Source of the DNA: a virus
Length of the DNA stretch: 53,142 bases
Strand: one strand, 5' to 3'
IMG/VR virus record: IMGVR_UViG_3300034682_000455
Coordinates: 1-53,142 of that record
The translations under genes and the position numbers were made by a program. Shown piece after piece: positions 19,198 to 41,448 of this stretch; position 1 is the stretch's first letter, and each line of letters begins with the position of its first letter. The notes under the pieces are model-generated. The model worked only from the letters and a program-made list of their open reading frames with translations. It was not told the origin of the DNA and made no database searches.

Positions 19198-19878
19198 ATG
19201 GCAAGCAGTACAGGCAAAGCACCCACCCCCACAAAGCCCCAGGTTGACTGGGAGCGCATCGCGCTGGACTACCGGGCAGCAATCAAGACGCTGCGCCAGA
19301 TCGCTGACGAGCACGGCATCTCGCATGGCGCCATCAACAAGCGCGCCAAGCGTGATGGATGGGAGCGCGACCTGACGGAAAAGATCCAGGCCAAGGCTGA
19401 TGCGCTGGTATCCAAGGCTGCAGTATCCAAGACGGTATCCAAAGAAGGGCGAGCGGCTGAGACCGCTGTCATCGAGGCCAACGCCCAGACGCAAGCCAGC
19501 ATCCGCCTGGCGCACCGCGCCGACATCGATCGCACCCGACGCCTGTGCATGCGCATGCTGGCAGAGCTGGAGCAGCAGAGCGCCGCGCCCGAGCTGCTGG
19601 GCGAGGTGGCCGAGATCCTGGCCGGCGTCCCGCCGGAGGAGATGACCAAGGCCCAGCGCGCGAAGCTGGCCGACGCCGCCGCCCGTGCGGGATCGCTGCA
19701 GTCCCGCTCCAGCACCATGCGGTCCCTGTCCGAATCGCTCAAGAGCTTGGTTGCCCTGGAGCGCCAGGCCTATGGCATCAAGGAGGAGGCCGCGCCGCCG
19801 CCAGACCCTGGTGTGGCCTCTTTCTCGACCGCTGACCTTTTTGCGATGCGCGATGCGCTCAAGAAGGGAGCCGCATGA
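19198..19878 (+). CDS. Terminase small subunit
   Basis: The 226-residue protein has an N-terminal helix-turn-helix of the terminase small-subunit type: WERIALDYRAAIKTLRQIAD, EHGISHGAINKRAKRDGWER. A helical oligomerisation region follows. It should recognise the packaging site and present DNA to the large subunit. Its stop overlaps the start of the large terminase gene (ATGA). It is the first gene after late motif 1. The ribosome site is weak (CCGGGGC). Confidence 0.85.
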   Translation: MASSTGKAPTPTKPQVDWERIALDYRAAIKTLRQIADEHGISHGAINKRAKRDGWERDLTEKIQAKADALVSKAAVSKTVSKEGRAAETAVIEANAQTQASIRLAHRADIDRTRRLCMRMLAELEQQSAAPELLGEVAEILAGVPPEEMTKAQRAKLADAAARAGSLQSRSSTMRSLSESLKSLVALERQAYGIKEEAAPPPDPGVASFSTADLFAMRDALKKGAA

Positions 19879-20618
19879 ACGTCGACAACCTCTCACCCGC
19901 CCAGCGTGAAGCCATGCTGGCCTCCATCGAACTGGAGCTGTCCCGCCGCAAGATCGACAGCATGTACCCGGACACCGGGCCGCTGCGCCGCGAGCTGTAC
20001 CCCAAGCACATGGAGTTCTTCAAGGCCGGCGCCACCTACCGCGAGCGCTGCGCAATGGCGGCCAACCGCGTGGGCAAGACCGAGGGCATGGGCGGCTACG
20101 AAACCGCGCTGCACCTGACAGGCCGTTACCCGGAATGGTGGGAAGGGCGCCGCTTTGACCGGCCCGTGCGCTTCTGGGCTGCCGGCAAGACCAACGAAAC
20201 CACCCGCGACATCGTGCAGAACAAGCTGTTCGGCCCGGTGGTGGGCTCGGGCACGTCCAAGTGCTTCAGCGGCACCGGCCTGGTGTACGCCGACTGCATC
20301 GAGCGCGTGGGCTGGAAGCAGGGCGTGACCGACCTGGCCGACACCGTGTACGTCAAGCACGTCAGCGGCAAGTTCTCCGAGCTGGGCCTGAAGTCTTACC
20401 AACAGGGCCGGGGCAGCTTTGAAGGCACCGAGCGTGACGGCATCTGGCTGGACGAGGAGCCGCCGCTGGAGGTCTACAGCGAGTGCCTGATTCGCACGGC
20501 CACCACCAACGGCATCGTGTACATCACCTTCACCCCCCTGGAGGGCACCACCGGCACGGTGATGATGTTCCTGGAGGGCGAGCAGGAAGCCAAGGAGGAG
20601 CCACTGTGCCTGCAGTAA
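19875..20618 (+). CDS. Terminase large subunit, ATPase half (frame 1)
   Basis: The 247-residue product has the packaging ATPase motifs: a Walker A in CAMAANRVGKTEGMGG (about 58-73) and a Walker B in GIWLDEEPPLEVYSECLI (about 197-214), then a coupling motif in IVYITFTPLEGTTG. It stops at 20618 after QEAKEEPLCLQ. Large terminases are normally a single protein of about 450-550 residues. The nuclease half is in the next frame (-1) and starts inside this gene, so the protein is split or frameshifted. As it stands it would lack the nuclease domain. Confidence 0.85.
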   Translation: MNVDNLSPAQREAMLASIELELSRRKIDSMYPDTGPLRRELYPKHMEFFKAGATYRERCAMAANRVGKTEGMGGYETALHLTGRYPEWWEGRRFDRPVRFWAAGKTNETTRDIVQNKLFGPVVGSGTSKCFSGTGLVYADCIERVGWKQGVTDLADTVYVKHVSGKFSELGLKSYQQGRGSFEGTERDGIWLDEEPPLEVYSECLIRTATTNGIVYITFTPLEGTTGTVMMFLEGEQEAKEEPLCLQ

Positions 20619-21370
20619 GCGCATTCCGCTACCTGGTGACCGCCGGCTGGGACGATGTGCCCCACCTGGACGAAAAGACCAAAAAGGAGCTGTGGGCCAG
20701 CTCGCCCCCGCATGAGCGCGAGGCCCGTGCCAAGGGCATCCCGACGCTGGGCAGTGGCCGCATCTTCCCCGTGGAAGAGAACAGCATCAAGGTGCCGGCG
20801 TTTGCCGTGCCGCCGCACTGGGCCCGCATCAACGGTATCGACTTCGGCTGGGACCACCCGACCGCAGCGGTGCAGCTGGCCTGGGACCGGGACAACGACT
20901 GCATCTACGTGATCCAGGCGCACCGGCTGAGCCACGCCACGCCGGTGATCCATGCCTCCACCATCAAGCCCTGGGGCGACTGGGTGCCCACGGCCTGGCC
21001 GCACGACGGGGAGCAGCACGACAAGGGCTCTGGCGAGCAGCTGGCGCTGCAGTACGCCAAGGCTGGTTTGAAGATGCTCAAGCACCGCGCCACGTTTGAA
21101 GATGGCTCCAACGGTGTGGAGGCCGGCCTGATTGACATGCTGGACCGCATGCAGACCGGGCGCTGGAAGGTGTTTGCCCACCTGGGCGACTGGTTCCAGG
21201 AGTTCAAGCTGTACCACCGCAAGGACGGCAAGGTCGTCAAGAAGCTGGACGACTTGATGAGCGCAAGCCGCTACGCCTTGATGATGAAGCGCAAGGCCAT
21301 CACCCAGCCCAAGCCGCAGCGCCCGATAACCGGTGGCTGGGCGCCGCTGGATCAAGAAATGGGGTACTGA
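20606..21370 (+). CDS. Terminase large subunit, nuclease half (frame 2)
   Basis: The 254-residue product starts at GUG 20606 with AAGGAGGAG 5 nt upstream and reads MPAVSAFRYLVTAGWDDVPH. It continues with KGIPTLGSGRIFPVEENSIK, the RNase H-like nuclease start INGIDFGWDHPTAAVQLAW, then FEDGSNGVEAGLIDMLDRMQ and the acidic KKLDDLMSASRYALMM, the usual order of the terminase nuclease domain. The first catalytic Asp is in GIDFGW. A good ribosome site suggests that the two halves can be made as separate chains. A single-base loss in an ancestral fused gene is the alternative. Confidence 0.85.
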   Translation: MPAVSAFRYLVTAGWDDVPHLDEKTKKELWASSPPHEREARAKGIPTLGSGRIFPVEENSIKVPAFAVPPHWARINGIDFGWDHPTAAVQLAWDRDNDCIYVIQAHRLSHATPVIHASTIKPWGDWVPTAWPHDGEQHDKGSGEQLALQYAKAGLKMLKHRATFEDGSNGVEAGLIDMLDRMQTGRWKVFAHLGDWFQEFKLYHRKDGKVVKKLDDLMSASRYALMMKRKAITQPKPQRPITGGWAPLDQEMGY

Positions 21371-27712: not shown

Positions 27713-29194
27713 TTAATGAAGTTTTACGTAGCTAGTGCTTTCACTTTTTGGATAAACGGCGAACTGTTCGACCAACTTGGCACTTCTTGCATCTAGCCCT
27801 CGCACTTCGACCTTTGTTCCGCCGCGTCGTAGTTTGAACACTACCCGGTCAAGTGCCTCAACTGAGGTCAAATCCCAAAACTGAGTCTGGCTCACATCAA
27901 TACAGATGCGCTCCACCTGTTCAAGGTAGTCAAACCTAGCAATAAAGCTTTCAGAAGAGGCAAAAAATACTTGCCCAGAAACAAAATAGGTACGTTGTTT
28001 ACCGTCTGGGCTGAGGCTTGAGGTGACATCCAAAATACGGCGCACCTTGTGTGCAAAGAACACACCAGACAGAAGAACGCCAGTCAGCACTCCCTTGGCC
28101 AAGTCATGGGTTGCAACAGTCACAACGACGGTAGCGAGCATCACAACGCTGGATGTTTTGGGGTGGGCAACCAAGTCCTTGATAGAGCGCCAGTTGAAGG
28201 TGCCAATCGACACCATGATCATCACGGCGACCAAGGCGGCCATGGGAATCTGCTTCACCAAATCGCCAAGAAACACAACCAATATCAGCAACACTACACC
28301 TGCGGTCAGCGTAGACAAACGCCCACGCCCCCCAGACTTCACGTTAATGACCGACTGACCAATCATGGCGCATCCGGCCATACCACCCACAAAACCTGTA
28401 GCAACGTTGGCGATACCTTGGCCGACGCATTCACGGTCTTTGTTACTCGTAGTGTCTGTCATGTCATCCACGATGGTGGCCGTCATGAGCGATTCCAGCA
28501 GGCCCACGACACACAGGGTGGCGGAATACGGCAGGATGATTTGGAGCGTCTCCCAAGTGAAGGGGACATTGGGAATGAAGAAGCTCGGCAGGCTATCAGG
28601 GAGTGCGCCCATATCGCCAACCGTGCGAATGTCTAGACCGAGAACCACATAAGCGATGCTTAAAACAATGATGGCAACCAAAGGCGAAGGAACGGCTTTG
28701 GTGATGTAGGGCAAGCCATAAATGATGGCAAGCCCTGCAGCCGTCATCGCATAGACATGCCAAGTGACATTGGTCAGCTCCGGCAGTTGAGCCATAAAAA
28801 TCAATATGGCCAATGCATTCACAAAGCCCGTCACCACGGAACGAGAGACAAACTGCATGAGCTGGCCCAAGCGTAAGAAGCCTGCCAGCATTTGGAGCAC
28901 ACCAGCAAGAATGGTGGCAGCTAGCAAATAGTCCAGTCCATGCTCTTTTACCAGCGTCACCATCACTAAGGCCATAGCGCCGGTAGCGGCTGAAATCATG
29001 CCAGGCCGCCCGCCAACAAAAGCAATAAGTGTGGCAATCGCAAAGGAGGCATACAGACCCACCTTGGGGTCAACGCCAGCAATGATGGAAAAAGCAATGG
29101 CCTCCGGAATAAGTGCCAAGGCAACAACGACGCCCGCCAGCAAATCGCCACGGACATTAGAGAACCATACGGTTCTGATTTTTTCAATAGACAT
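27713..29194 (-). CDS. SulP-family anion (sulfate-type) transporter with STAS domain
   Basis: The 493-residue membrane protein has the SulP core in about residues 1-380: [40 protein letters not shown] with [19 protein letters not shown], and [20 protein letters not shown]. These are the SulP signature segments, with 10 or more membrane helices. A STAS domain is at the C-terminus (about 400-490: [20 protein letters not shown]). SulP proteins carry sulfate, bicarbonate or other anions; the substrate cannot be read from sequence. GAGGGTGG precedes AUG 29194. The gene runs against the late operon, is more A/T-rich than its neighbours and is unrelated to virions, so it is cargo from a bacterial chromosome. 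Confidence 0.93.
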
Positions 29195-29559
29195 AGGTAT
29201 ACCACCCTCAGCATAGAGGGGCAGAACGCACCAAAGCAACCTGCATGAAGGGCAGGAGTAGGCGCAATGAAAACGCGAGCAAGCCTATAGCTCTAGCTAC
29301 AGGCAAGACGAACAGGTGGGGCAAGAAGTAAAGCGTTCTTGCTGCGCTGGTGCCCAGATTAGGGCGGAGTGACGGAGCGGAAGCGTCCGCGAGGCAGGGC
29401 TGCGCCCCGGTAATCAACCGGTTGTTGCGTGAAGTGAGCAAGAGCAGCCATCGCAAGAATTTTAACTAGAAAAAACACATCCACACGATGAGCTTTAAGG
29501 ACTCCAAAGGGTCGATTCCTGTCGGTCAAATAGCTAGAGTTTGCTGAAGCCTGGGCAAG
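29195..29559. other. Gene-free flank between the SulP gene and motif 4
   Basis: I see no credible gene here. There are scattered dyads (CGGA / TCCG around 29372-29390 and ACCGGT at 29418-29423), A/T-rich stretches and no clear transposon ends. It is probably chromosomal DNA that came with the SulP gene, including its promoter. No direct or inverted repeat was found that marks the insertion. Confidence 0.4.
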
Positions 29560-29631: not shown

Positions 29632-30921
29632 ATGGCCACGTCCGTCCCTACACGCCGCGCACTGATCGACCAGATCCCCACAGAAGAAGACCGCCAGGCG
29701 CCGGCGGCACGACCTCAATCCGGCATCCATTCTTCGGAGCTGGGCCGCCAGGCTTTCAACACGGCCATGGCACTGCCGGGTGTCGGAGGAATTGGCAAGG
29801 TGGCCCAAACGGGCGGCCTGGTCAGCCGGGCGTTGAACTCCACCGCCGGTGTTGCCAACAAGGTGGCCACCGGCACTGTAGCGCTGGCAGCGTTGCCTGC
29901 TGGGGCTGAAGCACCCGAGCCAGCACCTGCTGCACAACCTGCAAGCGCCGCTGGCGCTGGACGTGGCACGGTTAACCCACCCACTGCCGGGGCGACCAGC
30001 CCTCTGGTGGAGGCATCCCGACAGGTTGCTCCGGGCATTTACCGCGCCGGCAACAGCTATGCCGGCACGGGTGATGCGGCCGTGAGTCTGGACCGCGAGC
30101 CAAAGGGGCCGCCATCTGCCCAGAACATGGCCGCCGCTGACCAGCTGGCCGCGAACCAGCAGATGGAGAGCATCAGCCGTGTGGCCACCAGCGGCAACGT
30201 CCCGCAGTCTCCGACCCAGGGGCTGATTGGCCGCGTGACGGCCACGCACAGCGGCAACGACTGGACCGCGCGTGAGATGCTGCGGCGCCAGAAGACGAAT
30301 GCCGACAGCCTGATCCATCAGTCGCACTGGGCGCCCAAGGGTTCCGCCAGGGCAGCACAAGCCTCCTACCAGAACGCTGCAGCGGAGGATATGGCCGCCA
30401 TGACCAGGGGGCAGACCTCGGCCGATGTGGAGGTGATGCGCCAAAACGCGGGCTTGATGGGTGAGCAGATGCGGCAGTCCGGCGCTGACCGGCGCGATGC
30501 CCGCCGCGGCTTGATCGATGCGGCCCGCCTTGGCATGGACCAAGAAACCCAGGGCTTTGCCACCCGTGCCGCGGCCCAGCAAGAGCAGCTGCGCAGCACC
30601 TTGCTGGACCCCAACGCCAGCACAGAGCAGCGCGCATTGGCGCAGCGGTCCCTGGCGGCCCTGGCCGGCAAGTCGGCGGCGGACCGTTTGCAGACGGTGA
30701 ACCTGCCAGACACCACGACCGATATGGGCGCGGTGGTGCGCGGTGGCCAGGCGCTGGTGCGCATCATGGAAGATGGTACGGCTCAGCAGGTGCCCGTTGG
30801 TGCACAGGCGGCGCAGCCTCTAACCAACCACGTGCAGGCGCTGCGTAAGGATCCAAAGCTGGCTGCGCAGTTTGATGCCCAGTACGGCCCCGGTGCCTCT
30901 GCCCGCTATCTGGGCAAATAA
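29632..30921 (+). CDS. Internal virion protein, Ala/Gly-rich (429 residues)
   Basis: The protein starts MATSVPTRRALIDQIPTEED and has a glycine/alanine-rich hydrophobic-helix part (about 40-90: NTAMALPGVGGIGKVAQTGG, KVATGTVALAALPAGAEAPE). A long helical C-terminal part rich in Arg, Ala and Gln follows (VMRQNAGLMGEQMRQSGADR, AAAQQEQLRSTLLDPNAST). Such composition and its place before the giant virion protein match ejection (internal) proteins of podoviruses. AATGAGGTACCCCC precedes AUG 29632. A strong terminator follows the gene. The role is inferred. Confidence 0.65.
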   Translation: MATSVPTRRALIDQIPTEEDRQAPAARPQSGIHSSELGRQAFNTAMALPGVGGIGKVAQTGGLVSRALNSTAGVANKVATGTVALAALPAGAEAPEPAPAAQPASAAGAGRGTVNPPTAGATSPLVEASRQVAPGIYRAGNSYAGTGDAAVSLDREPKGPPSAQNMAAADQLAANQQMESISRVATSGNVPQSPTQGLIGRVTATHSGNDWTAREMLRRQKTNADSLIHQSHWAPKGSARAAQASYQNAAAEDMAAMTRGQTSADVEVMRQNAGLMGEQMRQSGADRRDARRGLIDAARLGMDQETQGFATRAAAQQEQLRSTLLDPNASTEQRALAQRSLAALAGKSAADRLQTVNLPDTTTDMGAVVRGGQALVRIMEDGTAQQVPVGAQAAQPLTNHVQALRKDPKLAAQFDAQYGPGASARYLGK

Positions 30922-30942: not shown

Positions 30943-30965
30943 AACCCGCTTCGGCGGGTTTTTTT
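30943..30965 (+). terminator. Terminator before the giant virion gene
   Basis: AACCCGC and GCGGGTT form a 7-bp stem closed by TTCG, with seven T. Motif copy 5 begins 3 nt later. Confidence 0.85.
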
Positions 30966-30984: not shown

Positions 30985-31016
30985 CGCGTATGGATGGCGC
31001 TGGGCAAAGTGGGTGC

Positions 31017-34000
31017 ATGAGCACACAGAACCCCTTTGCAGATCCCAATTTTGGGCGCAGTGATGCACCGGTGAATGGGCAGCCTTCAGCCAGCAATCCG
31101 TTTGCAGACCCTGACTTTGGCAAGGCACCAGCCACCCCCAGGCGCTCCCTCCTGGCCGCCATCAACGACACCGTGATTGAAGGCGCCAACGCGGCAGCCG
31201 GCACTGCATCAGCGGTTGCTAACTTTGTGCGTCCTGGCAATGCTGCCTCGCAGTGGATCGATAAGAACATTGTCGAGGCCGGCGAAGCCGCGCAGTCCGA
31301 TGTGGTCAAGGCCGAGAAGGCGCGCTACAGCCAGGAAATGCAGGACGCCGATGGAATGGGCGGCGAGGTCGGGGCCACGCTGGGCTACGTGGCGCGCAAT
31401 CCGTTGCTGGCGGCGGCACAGGGTGCAGGCTCCTTTGCCACCCCGGGCGTGGCCATCAAGGGGGCAACCGCTGGGGCGCGTGCCCTGGGCCTGGGCACTA
31501 AGGGCACGACCCGGGCTGGCTTGGCTGCTGGCGCGGGTGTCGGGGCGGCTGGCGCCGGCGGCGATGCCGCGGGCACGGCCTACGAACTGTCCCGGGAAGG
31601 CGGGGCCACCGACGAGCAGGCCCTGGCAGCCGGCCGCAGTGCCAGCGTGCTGCCAGGCCTGATCGGCGCGGCCGGCGGCCTAGTGGGGGCGGAGCGCCTG
31701 GTGGCCGGCGCCGGAGGTTTTAAGGGCGGTCTGGTGGCCCGGGCCCTGAAGACTGGCGCCGTGGAGGGTGCTCAGGAGGCCCTGGAAGAAGGCGTGACCC
31801 AGTACGAGGGCCAGCGCGCGGCCGTTCCGTTCAATCCTGAGTTGGACCCCATGAAGGGCGTGGCCGGCGCCGCCACCATGGGTGCCGTGCTGGGCGGCAT
31901 GACCGGTGCTGGTGCTTCGGTGCTGACACCTTCGCAGCACCTGGGCATCGATCGCGCCAACGGTCCTTTGTCGAGAGTGGCAGCTGACGCCGTAGACAGC
32001 GCCCCCGCCGCAGAGCCTGCGCCAGAGCAGCCGCCAACACCGCTGCAGCTGGCCTACAACCCCGACCCCATGATTGTGTTCCCCGATGGAACCACGGGCA
32101 CGCGGGCTCAGCTGGACGCCTACATCGAAGGCTTGCCAGAAGACCAGCGGATTGCCGCACGCGCCCGCTTGATGGGGATGGCGCCGCAAGCGGCTGACTC
32201 GCACTTGCCGCCAGAAGGCTGGCAGGAGCAGTACCAGGACCAGCCGGTGCGCGAGCTGCCACCGGTGGCCAACCCGCTGGCCGATATGCAGCAAGCCGTG
32301 CGCGAAGCCACCGACTACACGGACGCCGGCAAAGTGGAGGCGGTGCGTGGCGAGTTGGAGGATGCCTGGCTGGCGCTGAACGTGGGGGAGGCCCAGCCGG
32401 TGGCCGCCGGCCAGGCCAGCAACGAAGCCCAAGCCCCCCAGGATGCCGACCCTGCCGACCTGACTACAGAAACGAATGCCCGCCTGCGCGCTGGCCGTGT
32501 GGCCAGTGGCGTGCGCAATGCATTCGACGGTGGGGCACCCAACACCTTGCGCGTGATCCAGCACGTGAACCAGGGGCTGCGCACGATTGGTGAGCAGCCG
32601 CTGACATCCCCAGAAATCGCCCGCATCCGCCGCCTGGCCGACGCCCGCACAGCGTTCGCAGGCCTGAACCAACGCGCCGATTTGCCTGCGGATCCAGCTC
32701 CGGCCGTCGATGCGAATGCCGACAACAGCGCCATGGAGGCGCTGATTCCCGAGCGCCCCGCGCTGCAGCCGGCCATGGAGCAGGGCACGCCCGGTGGCGC
32801 TGCAGCCCCGGCGCAGCGCACACCAGCCGGCAATGCTGACATCGCAGGGGATCGTGTCGGTGGCGAGTGGGTGGCATTTGGCCCCAGCTCCGGCACCTTG
32901 GGTGTCCCACGTGCCCGGATGCCCCAGGTCGATGCCGCACACCGTGGCGCCCTGGTCAATTACCTCAAGGGCCAGGGTATCGCCAGCGAGCAGGCCGAAG
33001 TGCCCGCTAACAGCCTGAAGCCGACCCAAGCGGAATTCTCTGAAGCCAAGGTGCGCAAGGCATCCAAGCGCACCGGCGGTGACCGCGCCATCTTGGTGTC
33101 GTCGGACGGCTACGTGGTGGACGGCCACCACCAGTGGCTGGCCAAGCGCCAGGACGGCCAGCCCGTGAAGGTCTTGCAGCTGCAGGCGCCCATTTCCCAA
33201 TTGTTGCCCCTGGTGGGCGACTTCCCCAGCGCCCGCACCGCAGAAGGTGCGCAGGCCACTTCCCAAGGACAGCCAAGCAATGGTCCCGCCACGCCTCTCA
33301 ACGATGAATCGCAAGCAGCAGCGCCGGATGCGCCGCAAGTTCAAACGCCAGGGTCTGCAGTCCCCCAGCAAGAAGGGGTAGCCGATGCCACGCAAACCAC
33401 TCAAGCCCAGCAGATTGGCGCGCAGCCTCAAGCGCAAGCAGCAGCGGGAGCACAAAGCGCAGAACCGCCGTCCGCACCGCAATTGGATGTCGCGCCAGGC
33501 GTAGCACGCAAGCGCACGGCCGGAGACAACGCCCGCAGCCGCAGCTATGACGCCAATCCCATGCGCGCATTCTTGGGCAAGCATGGAGTGTCATTGAACA
33601 GTCGCAGCGAGTTCGCCCCAGGCCTGCAAGAACTGCGCGGCACCATGGTTCCAGGCTATGGGCCTGTGTTTCGCAAAACAGGCAAACCCCTGGACTTGCT
33701 GGTGCACAACGCCATCGAAGAAGGTTTTTTGCCAGAAGGTGCCACGGATGCCGATCTGTACGAACTGATCGACCGTGCGGTGCGTCGCAGCGAGCGGGTG
33801 GACCCCATGTTCACTGCCGATGCGGCAGAGCAGCAGATGCGTGCAATGTTCGACCGTGAAGCCCAGCTGCAAATGGAGGCACAGCAGGCCATTGACGAAG
33901 AGGTGGCCGCTTACGAGGCGGTCCTTGCACAAGAGCTGGCAGACACGTACAGTGCACAGGAGCTGGAAGCGATTGACGCGGCAATTCCTTTTGATGCACC

Positions 34001-37000
34001 CAGCAATGTGAGCACAGCGGCAGCGATGCGTGCCCTGGGTTTTTCAGATCAGGAGATTGAAGATGCAATCCGCAACGAACGACAACAAGCGCAGCCAGCA
34101 AGCACAGGCCCTGGCCAAACTGATGGCACTCGCACCGGCAGCCCGCAAACGGGTGCTGGAGCAGGCCAAGGCATTGAAAGCACAGGCCAAGAGCTAAGCA
34201 CCTACACCCGCGAGGAGGTACTGGCGCGCCAAGCAGCGCAGTCCCTTTCGCAAGCGGAGCAGGCCAAAGCGGACCGCGAAGCCGAGCTCCGCGACCAGGC
34301 AGAGCGCAATCAGCGCGAGATCCAAGCACGCCAAGCAGCCAGCGCCGAGAATTTCCAACTGGGTCAAGACCCCATGGCTGGACTGTCGGGGCAGACCAGT
34401 ATCTTTGATGCCCCAGCGCAGCCAGAGGGGCAGGCCGAGCCAGCCAAACCCGCGCCCACCCCAAAGACAGCCGATACCTCACGCCCAGCGCAGCGCATCG
34501 AGGATGTGGGCGAAAAAATCGGTGGTGCCCGCAAGGATGTGTGGTCTGGCTTCCGTGACGACATCGGCGCCGTGCCGGACGATGCGATTGCCGAGCAGCC
34601 CCTGTCCAAGGTCTGGCCACAGCCGGATTACCAGAAGCTGATTGATGCCGGCCACGATGCCGGCACGGTGGCCATGGTGCGCTCGCTGCGCGATGCCATC
34701 CCTACCAAGCCCCGCCAGAGCTTCAAGGTCCACCGCTGGGCAGCGCAGGTCAAGGAGCTGCGCGCCTTTGCGCTGGAGATGCTGGACGGCCAGATGCCGC
34801 ACCAGAAGCTGCGCACGGAACTTCTGAAGGCTGGCAGCCGGGATCTGCGTGGCATTGCAGGTCGGGCGGAGCTGTACGAGGCGGTGGGCCATGGCCAGAG
34901 CCTTGAGGGGATTACCTTCGGCGAGCACTTCTACACGCTCTACAAAGGCAAACCCAACGTTACGCTGTGGGCTGTGGAGCAGGCAGCCAATAGCAGCAGC
35001 TTTGGCAACTGGCCCCGTGAGCTGGCCACCGGCGACACCAAGGAGCAGGCGCTGGAGGCGTTCAAGAAGCTGCATGCCAACCAGGCCAAGCAAGAAGCCA
35101 AGGCCAATGTGCCCAGCTTTGACATTTGGTCCACTCGCCGCACGGGTGAGATTCATGTGGGCAAGAAGATCGGCCGCAACTACGCCGAGCTGGCCGGCCC
35201 GTTCAAGACCGTGCGTGAAGCCCGCGAGTACCGCGACCAGAACTTGGACGCGCTGACCACCAAGCTGGAGAAGTACAAAGAGGTTCCGGTGGAGCGCGCC
35301 GACACCAACCGGCCCCGCGTCGGCCAGGACATGCGCCAAGGCCTGGATGTGACCCCCGAGCAGTTCCGCGAGGCCTTCGGCTTCCGGGGCGTGGAGTTTG
35401 GCAACTGGGTGGAGCAGGGCCGCCGCCAGCAGGATCTCAACGATGCGTTCGACGCGCTCATGGACATGGCAGCAGTCTTGCAGCTGCCACCCAAGGCCAT
35501 TTCCCTGAATGGCGAGCTGGGCCTGGCCTTTGGCGCCCGGGGGGCTGGCGGCAAGAATCCGGCGGCTGCCCATTACGAGCGAGGCAAGGTGGTGATCAAC
35601 CTGACCAAGAAGTCGGGCGCCGGCAGCCTGGGCCATGAGTGGTGGCATGCCGTGGACAACTACTTTGCCCGTATGCGCGGCCAGGCCGATGACATGTTGA
35701 CGGAAGCCAGCGATGTAAGCGTGCTCTCCCGTGGCCCAGCCAAGACGTTTGCCCCGAATGCGAATGTTCGGCCGGAGATGGTCCAAGCGTTTGCCGAGGT
35801 CATCAAAGCCATCAACAACACCAGTTTGCGTGCCCGCGCCGCGGTGCTGGATGCCCGCCGTGCCAAGGAATACTGGGGCACTGACCCCGAACTGAGCGCC
35901 CGCGCCTTCGAGAGCTACCTGATAGCCAAGCTGGAAGACCAGAACGCCAGCAACGATTACCTGGCCAACGTGGTGGACGAGCAATTCTGGGAGGCGCAGG
36001 CCGCCCTGGGCATGCGGCTGGAAGGCAGCTACCCCTATGCCAAGGCCGGCGAGGTGCCTGCCATCCGCGCCGCCTTTGATCATTTCTTCCACACGGTGGA
36101 AACCAAGGAGACGGACAAGGGCGTGGCCATGTTCAGCCGGACAGAGCGCCCGGCCGTCTTCAACACCACGGCAGTCCAGATGCGCCGGGCCATGGTGCAG
36201 CGCACGGTCGGCAGCTTGACCCAGGGCTGGGGCCAGAGCCCCCGCATCACGGTGGTCGACAGCATGAATGACCCGCGCGTGCCCGAGGCTGTGCGCGAGG
36301 CCGACCAGGCGCAGCGCTCCCAGGGCGCCACCGGCGAGCCCGAAGGCTTCTGGTATCAGGGGCAGGTGTACCTGGTGGCCAGTGCGCTGCCTACTTCAGC
36401 GGATGCCACCCGGGTGCTGTATCACGAGGTGCTGGGCCACCATGGTCTGCGGGGGCGGTTTGGCGCCGAGCTGGACAAGGTGCTGGATCAGGTCGCCAAG
36501 CTGCGCCCCAAGGACGTGGCCGCGAAGGCGTCAGAGTACGGCCTGGACATGGGCAATCCTGATCACGTGGCCTATGCCGCCGAGGAAGTGCTGGCCGAAC
36601 TGGCCCAGACCCGCCCTGACCTGGGTTTTGTGCAGCGCGCGATTGCTGCGATCCGCAATTTCCTGCGCAGCCATGTGCCAGGCTTCAAGGCGCTGGAGTT
36701 GACCGATGCCGACATCGTGCAGGGCTATCTGCTGCCAGCGCGTGGCTGGGTGGAGCGTGGATCTCCTGCAGAGGCTTCAGGTGCGGCAGAGCCCGCGTTT
36801 GCACGTCATCCTGGGTTCAGTGCCGCCGTGGATGCAGCGATCAAAGCCGGCCAGCTGGGCGAGGTTGGTAACGGGCAGCACATTGAAATTGCGACCTTGC
36901 CGACTGCATTGTCCGCCGCAGGGATTCCTGAAGGCAATCTGAGAACTTCTGCCAAAGTGCTGCAGAAGGTGGTGTTCGATCATGGCGTGACGCCAAGCGT

Positions 37001-39917
37001 TCTCAAGCGCTTACCCGAACTGCTGGAAACACCGGTTATGGTGCTGCGCTCTGACTCCGTGGATGGGCGCTTTGTGGTGGTGACTTCTGAGATGGTGCGC
37101 GGTTCGCCGCTGGTGGTGGCCATCAGCCCGGAGGTGACGCGCGGGAATGTGGCGCTGAATTTTGTGCCGAGCCTGTATCCCAAGGAGGACTTGAAGGCTA
37201 TCCAGCGATGGCTGAATGGAGGGCGAGACGGCAAGCGGTTGCTGGCGTATCTGGACCAAAAGCAAAGCCCTGAGTGGTTCGGGTCAACAGGGCTCCAATT
37301 GCCAAGCGAATACCGCACCACCCAGGGCTTGCAAGCTCGAAATGTAGCCACACAGGCCGATGCTGTCAATGACGCGCCCCCAGGGCAGGCCATGTTCAGC
37401 CGCTCCCAGCCAGCAGACGCCATCCGCTCCAGCATGGGCAGCCTGACGGCCGACCAGGAGCGGGCCTACCTGGCCGTGGCCGGGTATGACAAAGTGCCCA
37501 CGCTGCGCGAGCGATTCGATCAGCTGCGCGCCAACCTGGGCCTGCGCATGAAGCAGGCGATGGTCGACCAGTTCGCCCCGATTGCGCAGCTGGACCAGAA
37601 CGCCTACATGCTGGCGCGCATGTCCAAGGGCAGCGACGGCACCCTGGAGGCAGCGTTGCTGTACGGCCGCCCGTTCCTGCGCGATGGCGTGCCGGATGTG
37701 GACGTGAAAGAGGGCGGCTTTGCCAAGGTGCTGGCCGGCCTGCAGGGTGAGCACGACCGCTTCCTGATGCACGTGGCGGCCCAGCGCGCAGAAAACCTCA
37801 AGGCCCAGGGCAAGGAGAACTTGTTCAGCGATCAGGACATCACCAGCCTGAAGACGCTCAACGATGGGCTGATGCCGGACGGCAGCAGCCGCAAGCAGGC
37901 CTATGCCAAGGCCCTGGCCCAGCTCAACAGCTTCAACGAGAGCGTGCTGCGCATAGCCAAGGAATCCGGGCTGATTGATCAGGACGCCTACGACCTGATG
38001 CGCGACCAGCCCTATGTGCCCTTCTACCGCCTGATGGAGGAAGAGGGCGGCCTGCAGGGGCCCAGCTTCTCCAAGGGGCTGACCAACCAGAAGGCCTGGA
38101 AGAAGCTCAAGGGCGGAACCGAGCAGCTCAATGCCGACTTGCTGCAGAACATGCTGCTCAACTGGGGCAATCTGTACGCCGCATCGGCCCGCAACCGCGC
38201 CGCGCTGGCCACCATGGATGCGGCCGACAAAATGGCCGTGGCCTACAAGGTGCCCAGCGACACCAAGGGCGCTGCCAAGGTGATGCGCGACGGGGTGACC
38301 GAGCACTGGATGGTGGAGGATCCCTACCTGCTGGAGGCCATCAGCGCGCTGAACTACCAGGCCAGCCCCCTGATGAAGCCGCTGGCCAAGGCCAAGCAGT
38401 GGCTGACCTGGGGCGTGACGGTGAACCCCACCTTCAAGGTGCGCAACCTGATCCGTGATGTGGTGTCCTCGATGGCCATGGCTGATCTGAGCTACAACCC
38501 GGCGGCCAACGTCGCCAATGGCTGGAAGCTGACGGCGCGCGATTCGCAGGTCTATGCCTCGATGCTGGCTTCCGGCGGCGTGATCAAGTTCGGCACGCAA
38601 GAGCAAACCGACCGCGCCCGCAAGCAGGTGGCCAAGCTGTCTGGCGTGATGCTGGACCAGAACGGTGCCCAGAAGTTGTGGTCGCAGGTCAAGGCGCTGT
38701 ACGCGGTCTATGACGAATTTGGTGACCGGACCGAGAACATCAACCGCGCGGCCCTCTATGACCGGCTGATCGCCAAGGGCCACAACCATGCCGAAGCCAG
38801 TTTCATGGCGCGCGACCTGATGGACTTCTCCATGGGCGGCAGTGCGCCTGTGGTGCGCTTCCTGACGCAATCGGTGCCATTCCTCAATGCCCGCCTACAG
38901 GGGCTGTACAAGCTCGGCCGCTCCGCCAAGGAAGATCCCCGCCGCTTCGCCACCGTGGCCATGGCGGTGAGCATGGCATCGCTGGGGCTGCTGGCGGCCT
39001 ATGCGGACGACGAGGACTGGAAGCGCCGCGAGGACTGGGACCGCGACAGCTACTGGTGGTTCAAGATCGGCGAAACCGCCTACCGGATTCCCAAGCCGTT
39101 TGAGGTGGGCGCCATCGGCACGCTGGCCGAGCGCACGGCCGAGGCGATGTTCAGCGAGGAGATGGACAGCAAGCGGTTCATGGAACGCATCAGCCACATG
39201 GTCAGCCAGACCTTTGCGTTTGACCCGATGCCCCAGGCGTTCAAGCCCCTGCTGGACATTTACGCCAACAAGGACAGCTTCACCGGCCGCGCGATCGAAA
39301 GCCAGGCCGACCAGCGGCTGCGCCCGGAGGACCGCTACAACGAGCGGACCTCGGAAGCGGCACGTTTCCTGGGCCAGGTGGGTTTGCCAGACCCCGCCCG
39401 ACTGATGAAGGGCGAGTATGCCGGCTTGAGCCCCAAGCAGATCGACCACCTGCTGCGTGGCTACTTCTCATGGATGGCCACGGCATCCACGGTGGCCACC
39501 GACATGTTGCTGCGCAACACCGTGGTGGATCGTGGCGAAAGCCCGGCAATGCGCCTGAAGGACGTGTTCCTGGTGGGCAACTTTGCCGAGGGCCTGCCAA
39601 CGGGCAGCAGCCGCTATGTCACCGCCATGTACGAGCAGTCCAAGTCGGTGGAGCAGGCCTATGCTGCGTACCGCGATGCGCTGGCCTCTGGCGACCATGC
39701 CAAGGCGAGCGAGATCATGGACAGCAGTGGTGAACTGATCCGCAGCCGCGGGGCCGTGAACACGGCCACCAAGCTGCTGGCGCAGCTCAACAGCCAAGCC
39801 AAGCGGGTGCAGGCTGACACGAACATGAGTTCGGACGAGAAGCGGGAGCGTTTGACGCGGATTGAGCAGCGCCGGCATGAGATCGCCAAGCGGGTGATGG
39901 GCAGCTCGGCTACTTGA
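31017..39917 (+). CDS. Giant polyvalent virion protein (2966 residues) with two HExxH domains
   Basis: The protein begins with two NPFADPxFG units, then a Gly/Ala-rich hydrophobic part (about 50-310). Around 640-745 is a ParB-like segment (RAILVSSDGYVVDGHHQWLA). About 1180-1400 has features of polyvalent-protein domains, followed at about 1440-1600 by an LPD1-like domain (FGFRGVEFGNWVEQG, LGLAFGARG) with the zinc motif HEWWH at 1540-1544. A second metalloprotease motif HEVLGH lies at 1803-1808. About 1940-2105 resembles a BECR-type phage nuclease or MuF-C domain (VMVLRSDSVDGRFVVVTSEM, less certain). The rest (about 2130-2966) has an LPD38-like helical part. It is probably ejected with DNA and acts in the host cell. 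Motif 5 serves it. Confidence 0.75.
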   Translation: MSTQNPFADPNFGRSDAPVNGQPSASNPFADPDFGKAPATPRRSLLAAINDTVIEGANAAAGTASAVANFVRPGNAASQWIDKNIVEAGEAAQSDVVKAEKARYSQEMQDADGMGGEVGATLGYVARNPLLAAAQGAGSFATPGVAIKGATAGARALGLGTKGTTRAGLAAGAGVGAAGAGGDAAGTAYELSREGGATDEQALAAGRSASVLPGLIGAAGGLVGAERLVAGAGGFKGGLVARALKTGAVEGAQEALEEGVTQYEGQRAAVPFNPELDPMKGVAGAATMGAVLGGMTGAGASVLTPSQHLGIDRANGPLSRVAADAVDSAPAAEPAPEQPPTPLQLAYNPDPMIVFPDGTTGTRAQLDAYIEGLPEDQRIAARARLMGMAPQAADSHLPPEGWQEQYQDQPVRELPPVANPLADMQQAVREATDYTDAGKVEAVRGELEDAWLALNVGEAQPVAAGQASNEAQAPQDADPADLTTETNARLRAGRVASGVRNAFDGGAPNTLRVIQHVNQGLRTIGEQPLTSPEIARIRRLADARTAFAGLNQRADLPADPAPAVDANADNSAMEALIPERPALQPAMEQGTPGGAAAPAQRTPAGNADIAGDRVGGEWVAFGPSSGTLGVPRARMPQVDAAHRGALVNYLKGQGIASEQAEVPANSLKPTQAEFSEAKVRKASKRTGGDRAILVSSDGYVVDGHHQWLAKRQDGQPVKVLQLQAPISQLLPLVGDFPSARTAEGAQATSQGQPSNGPATPLNDESQAAAPDAPQVQTPGSAVPQQEGVADATQTTQAQQIGAQPQAQAAAGAQSAEPPSAPQLDVAPGVARKRTAGDNARSRSYDANPMRAFLGKHGVSLNSRSEFAPGLQELRGTMVPGYGPVFRKTGKPLDLLVHNAIEEGFLPEGATDADLYELIDRAVRRSERVDPMFTADAAEQQMRAMFDREAQLQMEAQQAIDEEVAAYEAVLAQELADTYSAQELEAIDAAIPFDAPSNVSTAAAMRALGFSDQEIEDAIRNERQQAQPASTGPGQTDGTRTGSPQTGAGAGQGIESTGQELSTYTREEVLARQAAQSLSQAEQAKADREAELRDQAERNQREIQARQAASAENFQLGQDPMAGLSGQTSIFDAPAQPEGQAEPAKPAPTPKTADTSRPAQRIEDVGEKIGGARKDVWSGFRDDIGAVPDDAIAEQPLSKVWPQPDYQKLIDAGHDAGTVAMVRSLRDAIPTKPRQSFKVHRWAAQVKELRAFALEMLDGQMPHQKLRTELLKAGSRDLRGIAGRAELYEAVGHGQSLEGITFGEHFYTLYKGKPNVTLWAVEQAANSSSFGNWPRELATGDTKEQALEAFKKLHANQAKQEAKANVPSFDIWSTRRTGEIHVGKKIGRNYAELAGPFKTVREAREYRDQNLDALTTKLEKYKEVPVERADTNRPRVGQDMRQGLDVTPEQFREAFGFRGVEFGNWVEQGRRQQDLNDAFDALMDMAAVLQLPPKAISLNGELGLAFGARGAGGKNPAAAHYERGKVVINLTKKSGAGSLGHEWWHAVDNYFARMRGQADDMLTEASDVSVLSRGPAKTFAPNANVRPEMVQAFAEVIKAINNTSLRARAAVLDARRAKEYWGTDPELSARAFESYLIAKLEDQNASNDYLANVVDEQFWEAQAALGMRLEGSYPYAKAGEVPAIRAAFDHFFHTVETKETDKGVAMFSRTERPAVFNTTAVQMRRAMVQRTVGSLTQGWGQSPRITVVDSMNDPRVPEAVREADQAQRSQGATGEPEGFWYQGQVYLVASALPTSADATRVLYHEVLGHHGLRGRFGAELDKVLDQVAKLRPKDVAAKASEYGLDMGNPDHVAYAAEEVLAELAQTRPDLGFVQRAIAAIRNFLRSHVPGFKALELTDADIVQGYLLPARGWVERGSPAEASGAAEPAFARHPGFSAAVDAAIKAGQLGEVGNGQHIEIATLPTALSAAGIPEGNLRTSAKVLQKVVFDHGVTPSVLKRLPELLETPVMVLRSDSVDGRFVVVTSEMVRGSPLVVAISPEVTRGNVALNFVPSLYPKEDLKAIQRWLNGGRDGKRLLAYLDQKQSPEWFGSTGLQLPSEYRTTQGLQARNVATQADAVNDAPPGQAMFSRSQPADAIRSSMGSLTADQERAYLAVAGYDKVPTLRERFDQLRANLGLRMKQAMVDQFAPIAQLDQNAYMLARMSKGSDGTLEAALLYGRPFLRDGVPDVDVKEGGFAKVLAGLQGEHDRFLMHVAAQRAENLKAQGKENLFSDQDITSLKTLNDGLMPDGSSRKQAYAKALAQLNSFNESVLRIAKESGLIDQDAYDLMRDQPYVPFYRLMEEEGGLQGPSFSKGLTNQKAWKKLKGGTEQLNADLLQNMLLNWGNLYAASARNRAALATMDAADKMAVAYKVPSDTKGAAKVMRDGVTEHWMVEDPYLLEAISALNYQASPLMKPLAKAKQWLTWGVTVNPTFKVRNLIRDVVSSMAMADLSYNPAANVANGWKLTARDSQVYASMLASGGVIKFGTQEQTDRARKQVAKLSGVMLDQNGAQKLWSQVKALYAVYDEFGDRTENINRAALYDRLIAKGHNHAEASFMARDLMDFSMGGSAPVVRFLTQSVPFLNARLQGLYKLGRSAKEDPRRFATVAMAVSMASLGLLAAYADDEDWKRREDWDRDSYWWFKIGETAYRIPKPFEVGAIGTLAERTAEAMFSEEMDSKRFMERISHMVSQTFAFDPMPQAFKPLLDIYANKDSFTGRAIESQADQRLRPEDRYNERTSEAARFLGQVGLPDPARLMKGEYAGLSPKQIDHLLRGYFSWMATASTVATDMLLRNTVVDRGESPAMRLKDVFLVGNFAEGLPTGSSRYVTAMYEQSKSVEQAYAAYRDALASGDHAKASEIMDSSGELIRSRGAVNTATKLLAQLNSQAKRVQADTNMSSDEKRERLTRIEQRRHEIAKRVMGSSAT

Positions 39918-40368: not shown

Positions 40369-41448
40369 CTATCCTTTCTTTACTGGGCGGCGGATCAACA
40401 CAACAACCAGCGTCACGACCGTCAGCGGTACGACGAAGCTGAGCATGACGCCCGAGAATGCTGGCAGCGCATCGTGCTGCTGCGCGGCCATGATCAAGTA
40501 AGCCACGTATGCGACGTAGTAGCCCAGAAAGACCCCGCCTTCCCAGCGAGCGATCTCGCGACCAGTCATGAACACGGGGAGGCAGGCAAACGACACTGCC
40601 ACCATGACCCAGATGTCAAAGGCCAGCAGCGATGGAGCCATGTCCAACCCCAGGTCACCCGACACTAGGCCCGAGACACCCAGGCAGCCCAGAATGTTGA
40701 AGGTATTGCTTCCCACCACATTGCCTACTGCGATGTCCCGTTCGCCCTTGATGACTGCGGCGATGCTGGTGGCAACCTCGGGCATGCTGGTACCAGCGGC
40801 AACGATGGTCAGCCCAATGATCAGGTCGCTCACACCCATGGCCTTTGCGAAACTCACCGATGCTTGCACTAGGTACTCGGAGCCGAACACTAACGCAGCT
40901 AGGCCAGCGGCAATCAGCAGCAACTGAACCAGCAACCGATCGTCCCAGGCGCCGGGGGCAGAGGGTTTGATCTCACCCGCGTATTCGTCCTTGGCGAGCT
41001 GGGTTTCGCGCCGTGACTGCACGATCAGGAACACTGTGTAAGACACCAGCAGCACGAAGAGAAAACCGCCATCGAAAAACGAAAGTTGACCGTCCAACCC
41101 CAAGGCGAGCAAGAGAAAACATGCACCGATCATGATCGGTACCTCCTGGCGTATCAGCTGAATGTTGACCACCAGCGGTGCAATCAACGCGCTGATGCCA
41201 AGGATGAACAGAACGTTGAATATGTTGCTGCCCACCACGTTGCCAATGGCAATGTCGGTTTTCCCATCGAGCACGGCCCCCACGCTGACTGCAACCTCGG
41301 GTGCGCTTGTGCCGAGCGCAACGATCGTCAGTCCCACGACCAGCGGACTGATGCCAAACGACAGGGCCAGCTTGGAAGAGCCTCGCACCAACAAGCTGGC
41401 ACCCATGACCAGCAAGAAAAGCCCGCCGAGAAATAGAAGGATGTTCAT
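40369..41448 (-). CDS. Calcium/sodium antiporter (CaCA family, YrbG-like)
   Basis: The 359-residue protein has two inverted halves, each with the alpha-repeat motif: GTSAPEVAVSVGAVLDGKTD with IAIGNVVGSNIFN in the first (about 47-80) and GTSMPEVATSIAAVIKGERD with IAVGNVVGSNTFN in the second. It has about ten membrane helices and is full length for bacterial CaCA exchangers. Such proteins move calcium out in exchange for sodium or protons. The gene runs against the late operon, between the giant virion gene and the tail genes. It has no virion role that I know and looks like bacterial cargo. The upstream ribosome site is unclear. Confidence 0.93.
   Translation of the reverse strand: MNILLFLGGLFLLVMGASLLVRGSSKLALSFGISPLVVGLTIVALGTSAPEVAVSVGAVLDGKTDIAIGNVVGSNIFNVLFILGISALIAPLVVNIQLIRQEVPIMIGACFLLLALGLDGQLSFFDGGFLFVLLVSYTVFLIVQSRRETQLAKDEYAGEIKPSAPGAWDDRLLVQLLLIAAGLAALVFGSEYLVQASVSFAKAMGVSDLIIGLTIVAAGTSMPEVATSIAAVIKGERDIAVGNVVGSNTFNILGCLGVSGLVSGDLGLDMAPSLLAFDIWVMVAVSFACLPVFMTGREIARWEGGVFLGYYVAYVAYLIMAAQQHDALPAFSGVMLSFVVPLTVVTLVVVLIRRPVKKG

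Follow-up and report, generated by a model that had tools for sequence, protein, structure and literature searches.

The window analysed here is the whole of a 53,142-bp virus contig, in which a single frame on the + strand (31017-39917) stays open for 2,966 codons and encodes one protein, P0001, in agreement with the first-pass annotation. Should an in-frame ATG upstream, at 30990, serve as the start, this 2,966-aa product would be 9 aa longer. The leftward genes include an integrase (1-1101) and RecE/RecT-type genes, and the rightward genes comprise a DnaB-like helicase, TerS, TerL, a portal-type connector, the major head protein, other head genes and a 429-aa gene. P0001 itself is preceded by head genes and the 429-aa gene, which frequently accompanies the polyvalent gene in its relatives too, and followed by genes for head closure Hc3 and an endolysin. 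Judged from this sequence, the phage is temperate and P0001 is one of its late genes; it is probably short-tailed. Since a Comamonas jiangduensis contig contains a stretch 90% identical to the phage, a Comamonas-like host is likely. A megablast search of the P0001 gene against phage records gave zero matches.

Several other features of the contig can be mentioned here. The large terminase subunit (19875-21370, +) consists of two overlapping ORFs in different frames, the first half matching the 261-aa family phrog_31467. The split also occurs in G001, the record of the nearest relative L003, and a single 516-aa frame is found in G002, the record of L002; it may represent a natural split gene or a programmed frameshift. 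A complete gene for a SulP-type sulfate permease with a STAS domain (27713-29239, -; Pfam 206 bits) lies on the opposite strand within the late region. It has a GC content of 51.7% versus 62.1% for the contig and no counterpart in the fetched relatives, and has the appearance of host cargo picked up not long ago. A complete gene for a sodium/calcium exchanger (40369-41448, -; Pfam 222 bits), on the opposite strand just 3' of the polyvalent gene, has no counterpart in the fetched relatives either. Finally, a terminator-like hairpin that leads into a run of T, AACCCGCTTCGGCGGGTTTTTTT (30943-30965), can be read from the sequence between the 429-aa gene and the polyvalent gene. The main features are as follows.

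29632-30921 (+): 429-aa gene, matching phrog_11341; similar ORFs in many relatives' loci
31017-39917 (+): polyvalent protein gene P0001, single open frame with Pfam LPD5, LPD1, MuF_C and LPD38
32832-33344 (+): ParB/sulfiredoxin-like segment, residues 606-776, with GYVVDGHHQW; phrog_11358 (E 1e-28) and phrog_2859
34485-35396 (+): LPD5 region, residues 1157-1460; Pfam LPD5 1313-1453, E 9.7e-39; AF2 pLDDT mostly >85
35397-36107 (+): zincin 1, residues 1461-1697, Pfam LPD1 most likely being its C-terminal half; from the CLCA_X span and the order of AF2 elements
36174-36776 (+): zincin 2, HExxxH type, residues 1720-1920; alignment A7; AF2 helix-strands-helix-helix
36975-37268 (+): MuF_C/PBECR (BECR-fold) domain, residues 1987-2084, lost in L003; Pfam E 2.6e-16; invariant His1989
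37554-39896 (+): LPD38 region, residues 2180-2960, with a hydrophobic stretch at 2644-2662; Pfam LPD38 2665-2851, E 4.2e-37

Domain HMM searches along the chain, proposed in the first-pass annotation as a check, returned four Pfam domains, all far above cut-off: LPD5 at 1313-1453, LPD1 at 1611-1697, MuF_C at 1987-2084 and LPD38 at 2665-2851. With two zincin-type domains in the same chain, P0001 combines well over the at least two unlike domains that define a polyvalent protein, and it is encoded among the virion (late) genes, as is typical of this class. Its earlier assignment to a known class of phage proteins is well supported; the class was described by Iyer et al. 2017 (PMC5512222). The ParB-like segment noted near residue 700 fared less well: phrog_11358 and phrog_2859 do match at 606-776, but they are of unknown function, and Pfam ParBc_2 reaches 12.3 bits, below its cut-off of 23.6. 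According to PMC5512222, polyvalent proteins carry 1-5 zincins, with more than one in about 8% of zincin carriers, and processing of the chains by their own zincins had already been proposed there. The polyvalent class, two zincins per chain and the idea that the chain is cut into pieces are all already published. The residues on which the two zincins of P0001 depend are listed below.

35634-35648 (+): HEWWH, residues 1540-1544, with Asp1547; conserved in relatives
35910-35912 (+): Glu1632, proposed third zinc ligand of zincin 1; invariant E483 in alignment A4, in model helix 474-492
36423-36440 (+): HEVLGH, residues 1803-1808; H, E and H invariant in 35 relatives
36585-36587 (+): Glu1857, proposed third zinc ligand of zincin 2; invariant E138 of A7, in model helix 699-716

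HEWWH, as first reported, is a true HExxH motif, and of 118 non-redundant relatives nearly all retain HEW[WF]H and the Asp after it. In the zincin 1 alignment (A4, 58 sequences), the H, E, H and D residues and two later Glu residues (1625 and 1632) are invariant, and a near-invariant His1519 (AAHYE) lies in the second predicted strand. Zincin 1 thus displays the HExxH, the Asp three residues on (HEWWHAVD) and the His near strand 2 that mark the phage-type zincin clade in PMC5512222, together with a Glu in a later helix. In the AF2 domain model (mean pLDDT 82.9), an N-terminal helix is followed by three strands, then by the HEWWH helix and finally by the helix of Glu1632, the latter inside Pfam LPD1. 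Glu1632 is the proposed third ligand, and Glu1625 (E476 in A4), which is likewise invariant, is an alternative candidate. In the relative L010, an apparent third protease-like site follows zincin 1, with an HExxH copy (HEMFH) and a later HExxxH copy.

The HEWWH motif had been placed within an LPD1-like region. It actually lies upstream of Pfam LPD1, and yet the two appear to form one unit: the NCBIfam family CLCA_X (NF041907), in which HEWWH and LPD1 make up a single unit of about 250 aa, spans both at 1434-1692. P0001 differs from this family in that it scores below the cut-off (142 versus 260 bits) and has the unit built into a giant chain as one of its domains. LPD1 is classed among the domains of unknown function in PMC5512222. 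Because the predicted Glu1632 helix falls inside LPD1, because CLCA_X covers both parts, and because several relatives have inserts between the HEWWH half and the LPD1 half, LPD1 most likely makes up the second half of zincin 1 and supplies its third ligand.

The second motif, HEVLGH, is found where it was first described, but it is not a second HExxH: with four residues between the histidines it is an HExxxH, a published zincin variant with a clade of its own (PMC5512222). Residues H1803, E1804, H1808 and E1857 are invariant over 35 sequences with about 28% mean identity (A7), and in the AF2 model they occupy the two expected helices, so that zincin 2 combines the HExxxH variant with a Glu in a later helix. 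Across relatives the site is of HExxxH type in most and HExxH in a few. Both zincins are modelled, mostly with high confidence, in the expected order of N-terminal helix, strands, HEx2-3H helix and Glu helix. A Foldseek search of the multi-domain AF2 model against the PDB gave no zincin among the matches listed, none of which was significant, and PDB profile searches with both zincin alignments found no zincin. Common descent of zincins 1 and 2 was also considered; a profile comparison aligns their HE columns with 4% probability only, and such a relationship is therefore not claimed. Both proteases look functional, as their active-site signatures are near-invariant in dozens of relatives.

The BECR-type nuclease suspected near 1940-2105 corresponds to MuF_C, that is, the PBECR/BECR nuclease fold, which scores far above cut-off (60.1 versus 27.6 bits). 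Its His1989 is invariant in 7 relatives, and the S/T-G-L-Q end is seen only in the rows that reach that far. With Foldseek, the top PDB match of the domain model is a Salmonella toxin-antitoxin toxin, not significant, with a HigB2-HigA2 complex further down; these toxin matches are consistent with the BECR domain only. Judging by the active-site residues conserved across relatives, the domains of P0001 are not chance matches.

The C-terminal third ends in LPD38, as anticipated, with 128.5 bits against a cut-off of 27, and phrog_18222 matches the whole protein with 1,750 bits. Homologues of this third, for which 79 loci were collected, include podovirus proteins and are spread over phages of Achromobacter, Aeromonas, Vibrio, Escherichia, Bacillus, Pelagibacter and others. 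A Foldseek search of the AF2 model of the LPD38 region against the PDB gave no meaningful match. An HEx2-3H motif is present in 71/71 LPD38-region proteins of at least 1,500 aa, as compared with 5.3 in shuffles (maximum 11), and long proteins that have neither the zincin 1 nor the zincin 2 family contain another HExxH instead. In the small podovirus HTVC010P of Pelagibacter, the LPD38 region stands alone as a 504-aa protein with a small neighbour; this cargo-free homologue has no HEx2-3H, and no HExxH was found in the surrounding genes. A zincin thus seems to be a near-obligatory companion of LPD38 whenever cargo is carried, a link added by the present analysis.

A connection with the virion is provided by JC1 gp69, a protein with an LPD38 end that was found in CsCl-purified virions with 51 unique peptides (PMC9144972). 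In Escherichia phage PTXU04, gp25, which consists of zincin 2 and the LPD38 region, is needed for plaque formation and falls within a set of proteins toxic on expression or interfering with infection (PMC11879866); when four virion bands were assigned by peptide mass fingerprinting, gp25 was not one of them (PMC6563267). From the gene position of P0001 and its relatives, JC1 gp69 in particular, we infer that P0001 too is located in the virion. The domains, their conservation, the gene position and the virion-proven LPD38 relative give good support to the view of P0001 as a polyvalent package, probably carried in the virion, that combines two proteases with a nuclease-like domain.

The organization of the chain becomes clearer from its relatives. 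For the LPD5-zincin-LPD1 block, the best 80 of 433 relatives in IMG/VR and the best 80 of 211 in bacterial genomes were fetched. The nearest phage, L003, is 93-100% identical to P0001 over most of the chain, and three stretches are replaced or lost: residues 837-1136, the loop 1556-1615 and the PBECR stretch 1916-2095, so that MuF_C/PBECR is absent from L003.

33525-34424 (+): module, residues 837-1136, replaced in L003; 6-23% identity versus about 97% on either side
35682-35861 (+): variable loop linking the HEWWH and Glu helices, residues 1556-1615; 46% identity to L003 versus 93-95% in the flanks

Near-identical phages thus swap whole modules as units, the nuclease included, and the PBECR nuclease is dispensable. 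The loop 1556-1615 in L003 resembles the version found in L005.

A short motif recurs in the linkers between these modules, at the following positions in P0001.

36129-36140 (+): MFSR, residues 1705-1708, junction motif where the zincin 1 fold ends; model strand 554-556 ends here, and pLDDT is <50 from local residue 558
36795-36806 (+): variant junction motif AFAR, residues 1927-1930, before PBECR; FSR in L015 and L034
37392-37403 (+): MFSR, residues 2126-2129, junction motif in the linker, predicted to be disordered, that leads to the C-terminal third; pLDDT <50 over local residues 1-32

MFSR occurs twice, once directly behind LPD1 (1705) and once ahead of the LPD38 region (2126), both copies being at the edge of, or inside, low-confidence AF2 segments. 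In non-redundant linkers, the pattern x[FY]S[RKQL] is present in 25/54 after LPD1 (shuffles 1.4), in 23/60 after zincin 2 (shuffles 3.3) and in 23/39 before the LPD38 region (shuffles 1.6). Among about 300-355 dipeptides, FS ranks first in each of these three linkers. Upstream of LPD5 there is no enrichment (3/65 linkers versus 2.6 in shuffles). When all proteins are pooled, the strict motif is found 102 times outside the mapped domains and 20 times inside, the best permuted control reaching 41 outside. Counted as independent occurrences over whole proteins, the excess is modest (36 versus 28 for the next permuted pattern), and the claim therefore rests on the linker windows with their shuffles. 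The motif and the windows were picked after viewing the same sequences as were counted, and shuffles overstate independence, even after removal of redundancy, because the relatives share descent. An outside set of phage and plasmid records has the motif at a junction in 3/6 extra proteins, which is a small set. At the zincin 2/LPD38 joint of PTXU04 gp25 no junction motif is present, and no clear one was found in JC1 gp69, nor in BcepIL02 gp70, where it was sought beside the zincin that this protein contains.

P1 DdrB, tried as a positive control for the motif, gave no support: its processing to about 76 kDa is reported, yet it has no motif near residue 700, and the nearest one, RFSY at 757, would predict a larger product. 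A DNA recombination site is disfavoured as well, since the Ser at motif sites is encoded by both AGY and TCN codons, which points to selection at the protein level. No described cleavage motif for polyvalent proteins was found in the open-access literature, and the examined text of PMC5512222 describes no junction motif. The recurrence of x[FY]S[RKQL] at three junctions downstream of the first protease is new.

In the reading that we prefer, the LPD38 third would be the virion or ejection part, which would load the chain into the particle and carry it along when the DNA leaves. All that lies N-terminal of this part would be exchangeable cargo: the ParB-like segment, LPD5, zincin 1 including LPD1, zincin 2 and PBECR. 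One or both zincins would cut the chain in cis at the hydrophobic-[FY]-S-[RKQL] joints (MFSR 1705, MFSR 2126 and the variant AFAR 1927), and cutting would free the cargo from the ejection part. The domains, their conservation, the swapping of modules and the enrichment of the motif are observed; packaging and ejection, zinc binding, cleavage and its timing, and the roles of the freed pieces are what we infer from them. Taken as a whole, this reading seems to us a real possibility, at somewhat less than an even chance. The narrower proposal, that hydrophobic-[FY]-S-[RKQL], common to unrelated joints of LPD5/LPD38 polyvalent proteins, is the site recognized and cut by the resident zincins, so that exchangeable cargo is split by protease sites in an injected protein in a polyprotein-like strategy, is tentative and, on the sequences, rather unlikely to be right. 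We know of no LPD38-region protein that has been seen cleaved, which counts against cutting in cis. So does the zincin-bearing N4 virion RNA polymerase, which is reported to be packaged unprocessed (PMC5512222).

Alternatively, the zincins may act as effectors that cleave proteins of the host once inside the cell, those of defence for example; the chain would then remain whole, and the FS motif would serve as a docking or packaging signal or as a structural end-cap. Zincins do act as effectors in other conflict systems, and Iyer et al. 2017 (PMC5512222) keep this option open; moreover, near-identical phages have exchanged the loop between the HEWWH and Glu helices, the pattern expected of an arms race over substrate. 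However, some zincin is found in every long LPD38-region protein while the families differ, and this fits a general role tied to cargo better than a single target in the host. The motif after LPD1 directly follows the predicted terminal strand, as an end-cap might, but in the C-terminal linker it lies in predicted disorder, so a pure structural end-cap fails there. We consider this alternative unlikely, if a serious one. Self-processing would be favoured over host-targeting proteases because a zincin accompanies cargo-carrying LPD38 and because a recurrent motif marks the joints.

P0001 could also be mainly a structural or ejection protein, its zincins being peptidases of the wall or of capsid maturation that would help it through the cell wall or help to open the particle. 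Related giant proteins with lytic transglycosylase domains (BcepIL02 gp70, SLT), the 504-aa stand-alone LPD38 region of HTVC010P and the need for PTXU04 gp25 in plaquing (PMC11879866) are in line with this idea. Its probability is low, however, as neither zincin could be tied to peptidoglycan peptidases in Pfam or solved structures, and polyvalent zincin clades are distinct from other zincins according to PMC5512222. That the zincin domains are inactive relics or scaffolds with no need of zinc, as the unusual HExxxH spacing might suggest, is very improbable, given that two different families of low overall identity both have near-invariant catalytic and ligand residues.

Phages and prophages widely encode polyvalent proteins, in which self-cutting by the zincins has been a question since 2017. 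The joint motif, the near-obligatory zincin and relatives that lose single modules make the self-processing idea readily testable at the bench. If it is true, cargo pieces could be read from the flanking motifs in the sequence, which would aid the search for new phage anti-defence enzymes.

In its general design, P0001 resembles the polyvalent proteins of Iyer et al. 2017, which (PMC5512222) are late-gene products with zincins of the HExxH-with-Asp and HExxxH types, PBECR, LPD1, LPD5 and LPD38. What is new here is the correction of the HEVLGH motif, the re-reading of LPD1, the link between zincin and LPD38, and the junction motif. The Bcep22-like DarB-type giants JC1 gp69 and BcepIL02 gp70 are likewise podovirus proteins with an LPD38 end and an HExxH site upstream of the C-terminal region; their cargo consists of SLT, methylase/helicase and LPD3, whereas that of P0001 consists of LPD5, two zincins and PBECR. 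PTXU04 gp25 shares with P0001 a zincin 2 family domain followed by the LPD38 region, but is shorter (2,197 aa) and lacks LPD5, zincin 1 and LPD1. Short-tailed phages of E. coli encode large LPD5 proteins (phrog_616 type, matching P0001 residues 1134-2105) that have LPD5, zincin 1 and LPD1 in the same order as P0001, at 32-38% identity; tblastn reported no match of theirs to the P0001 LPD38 region.
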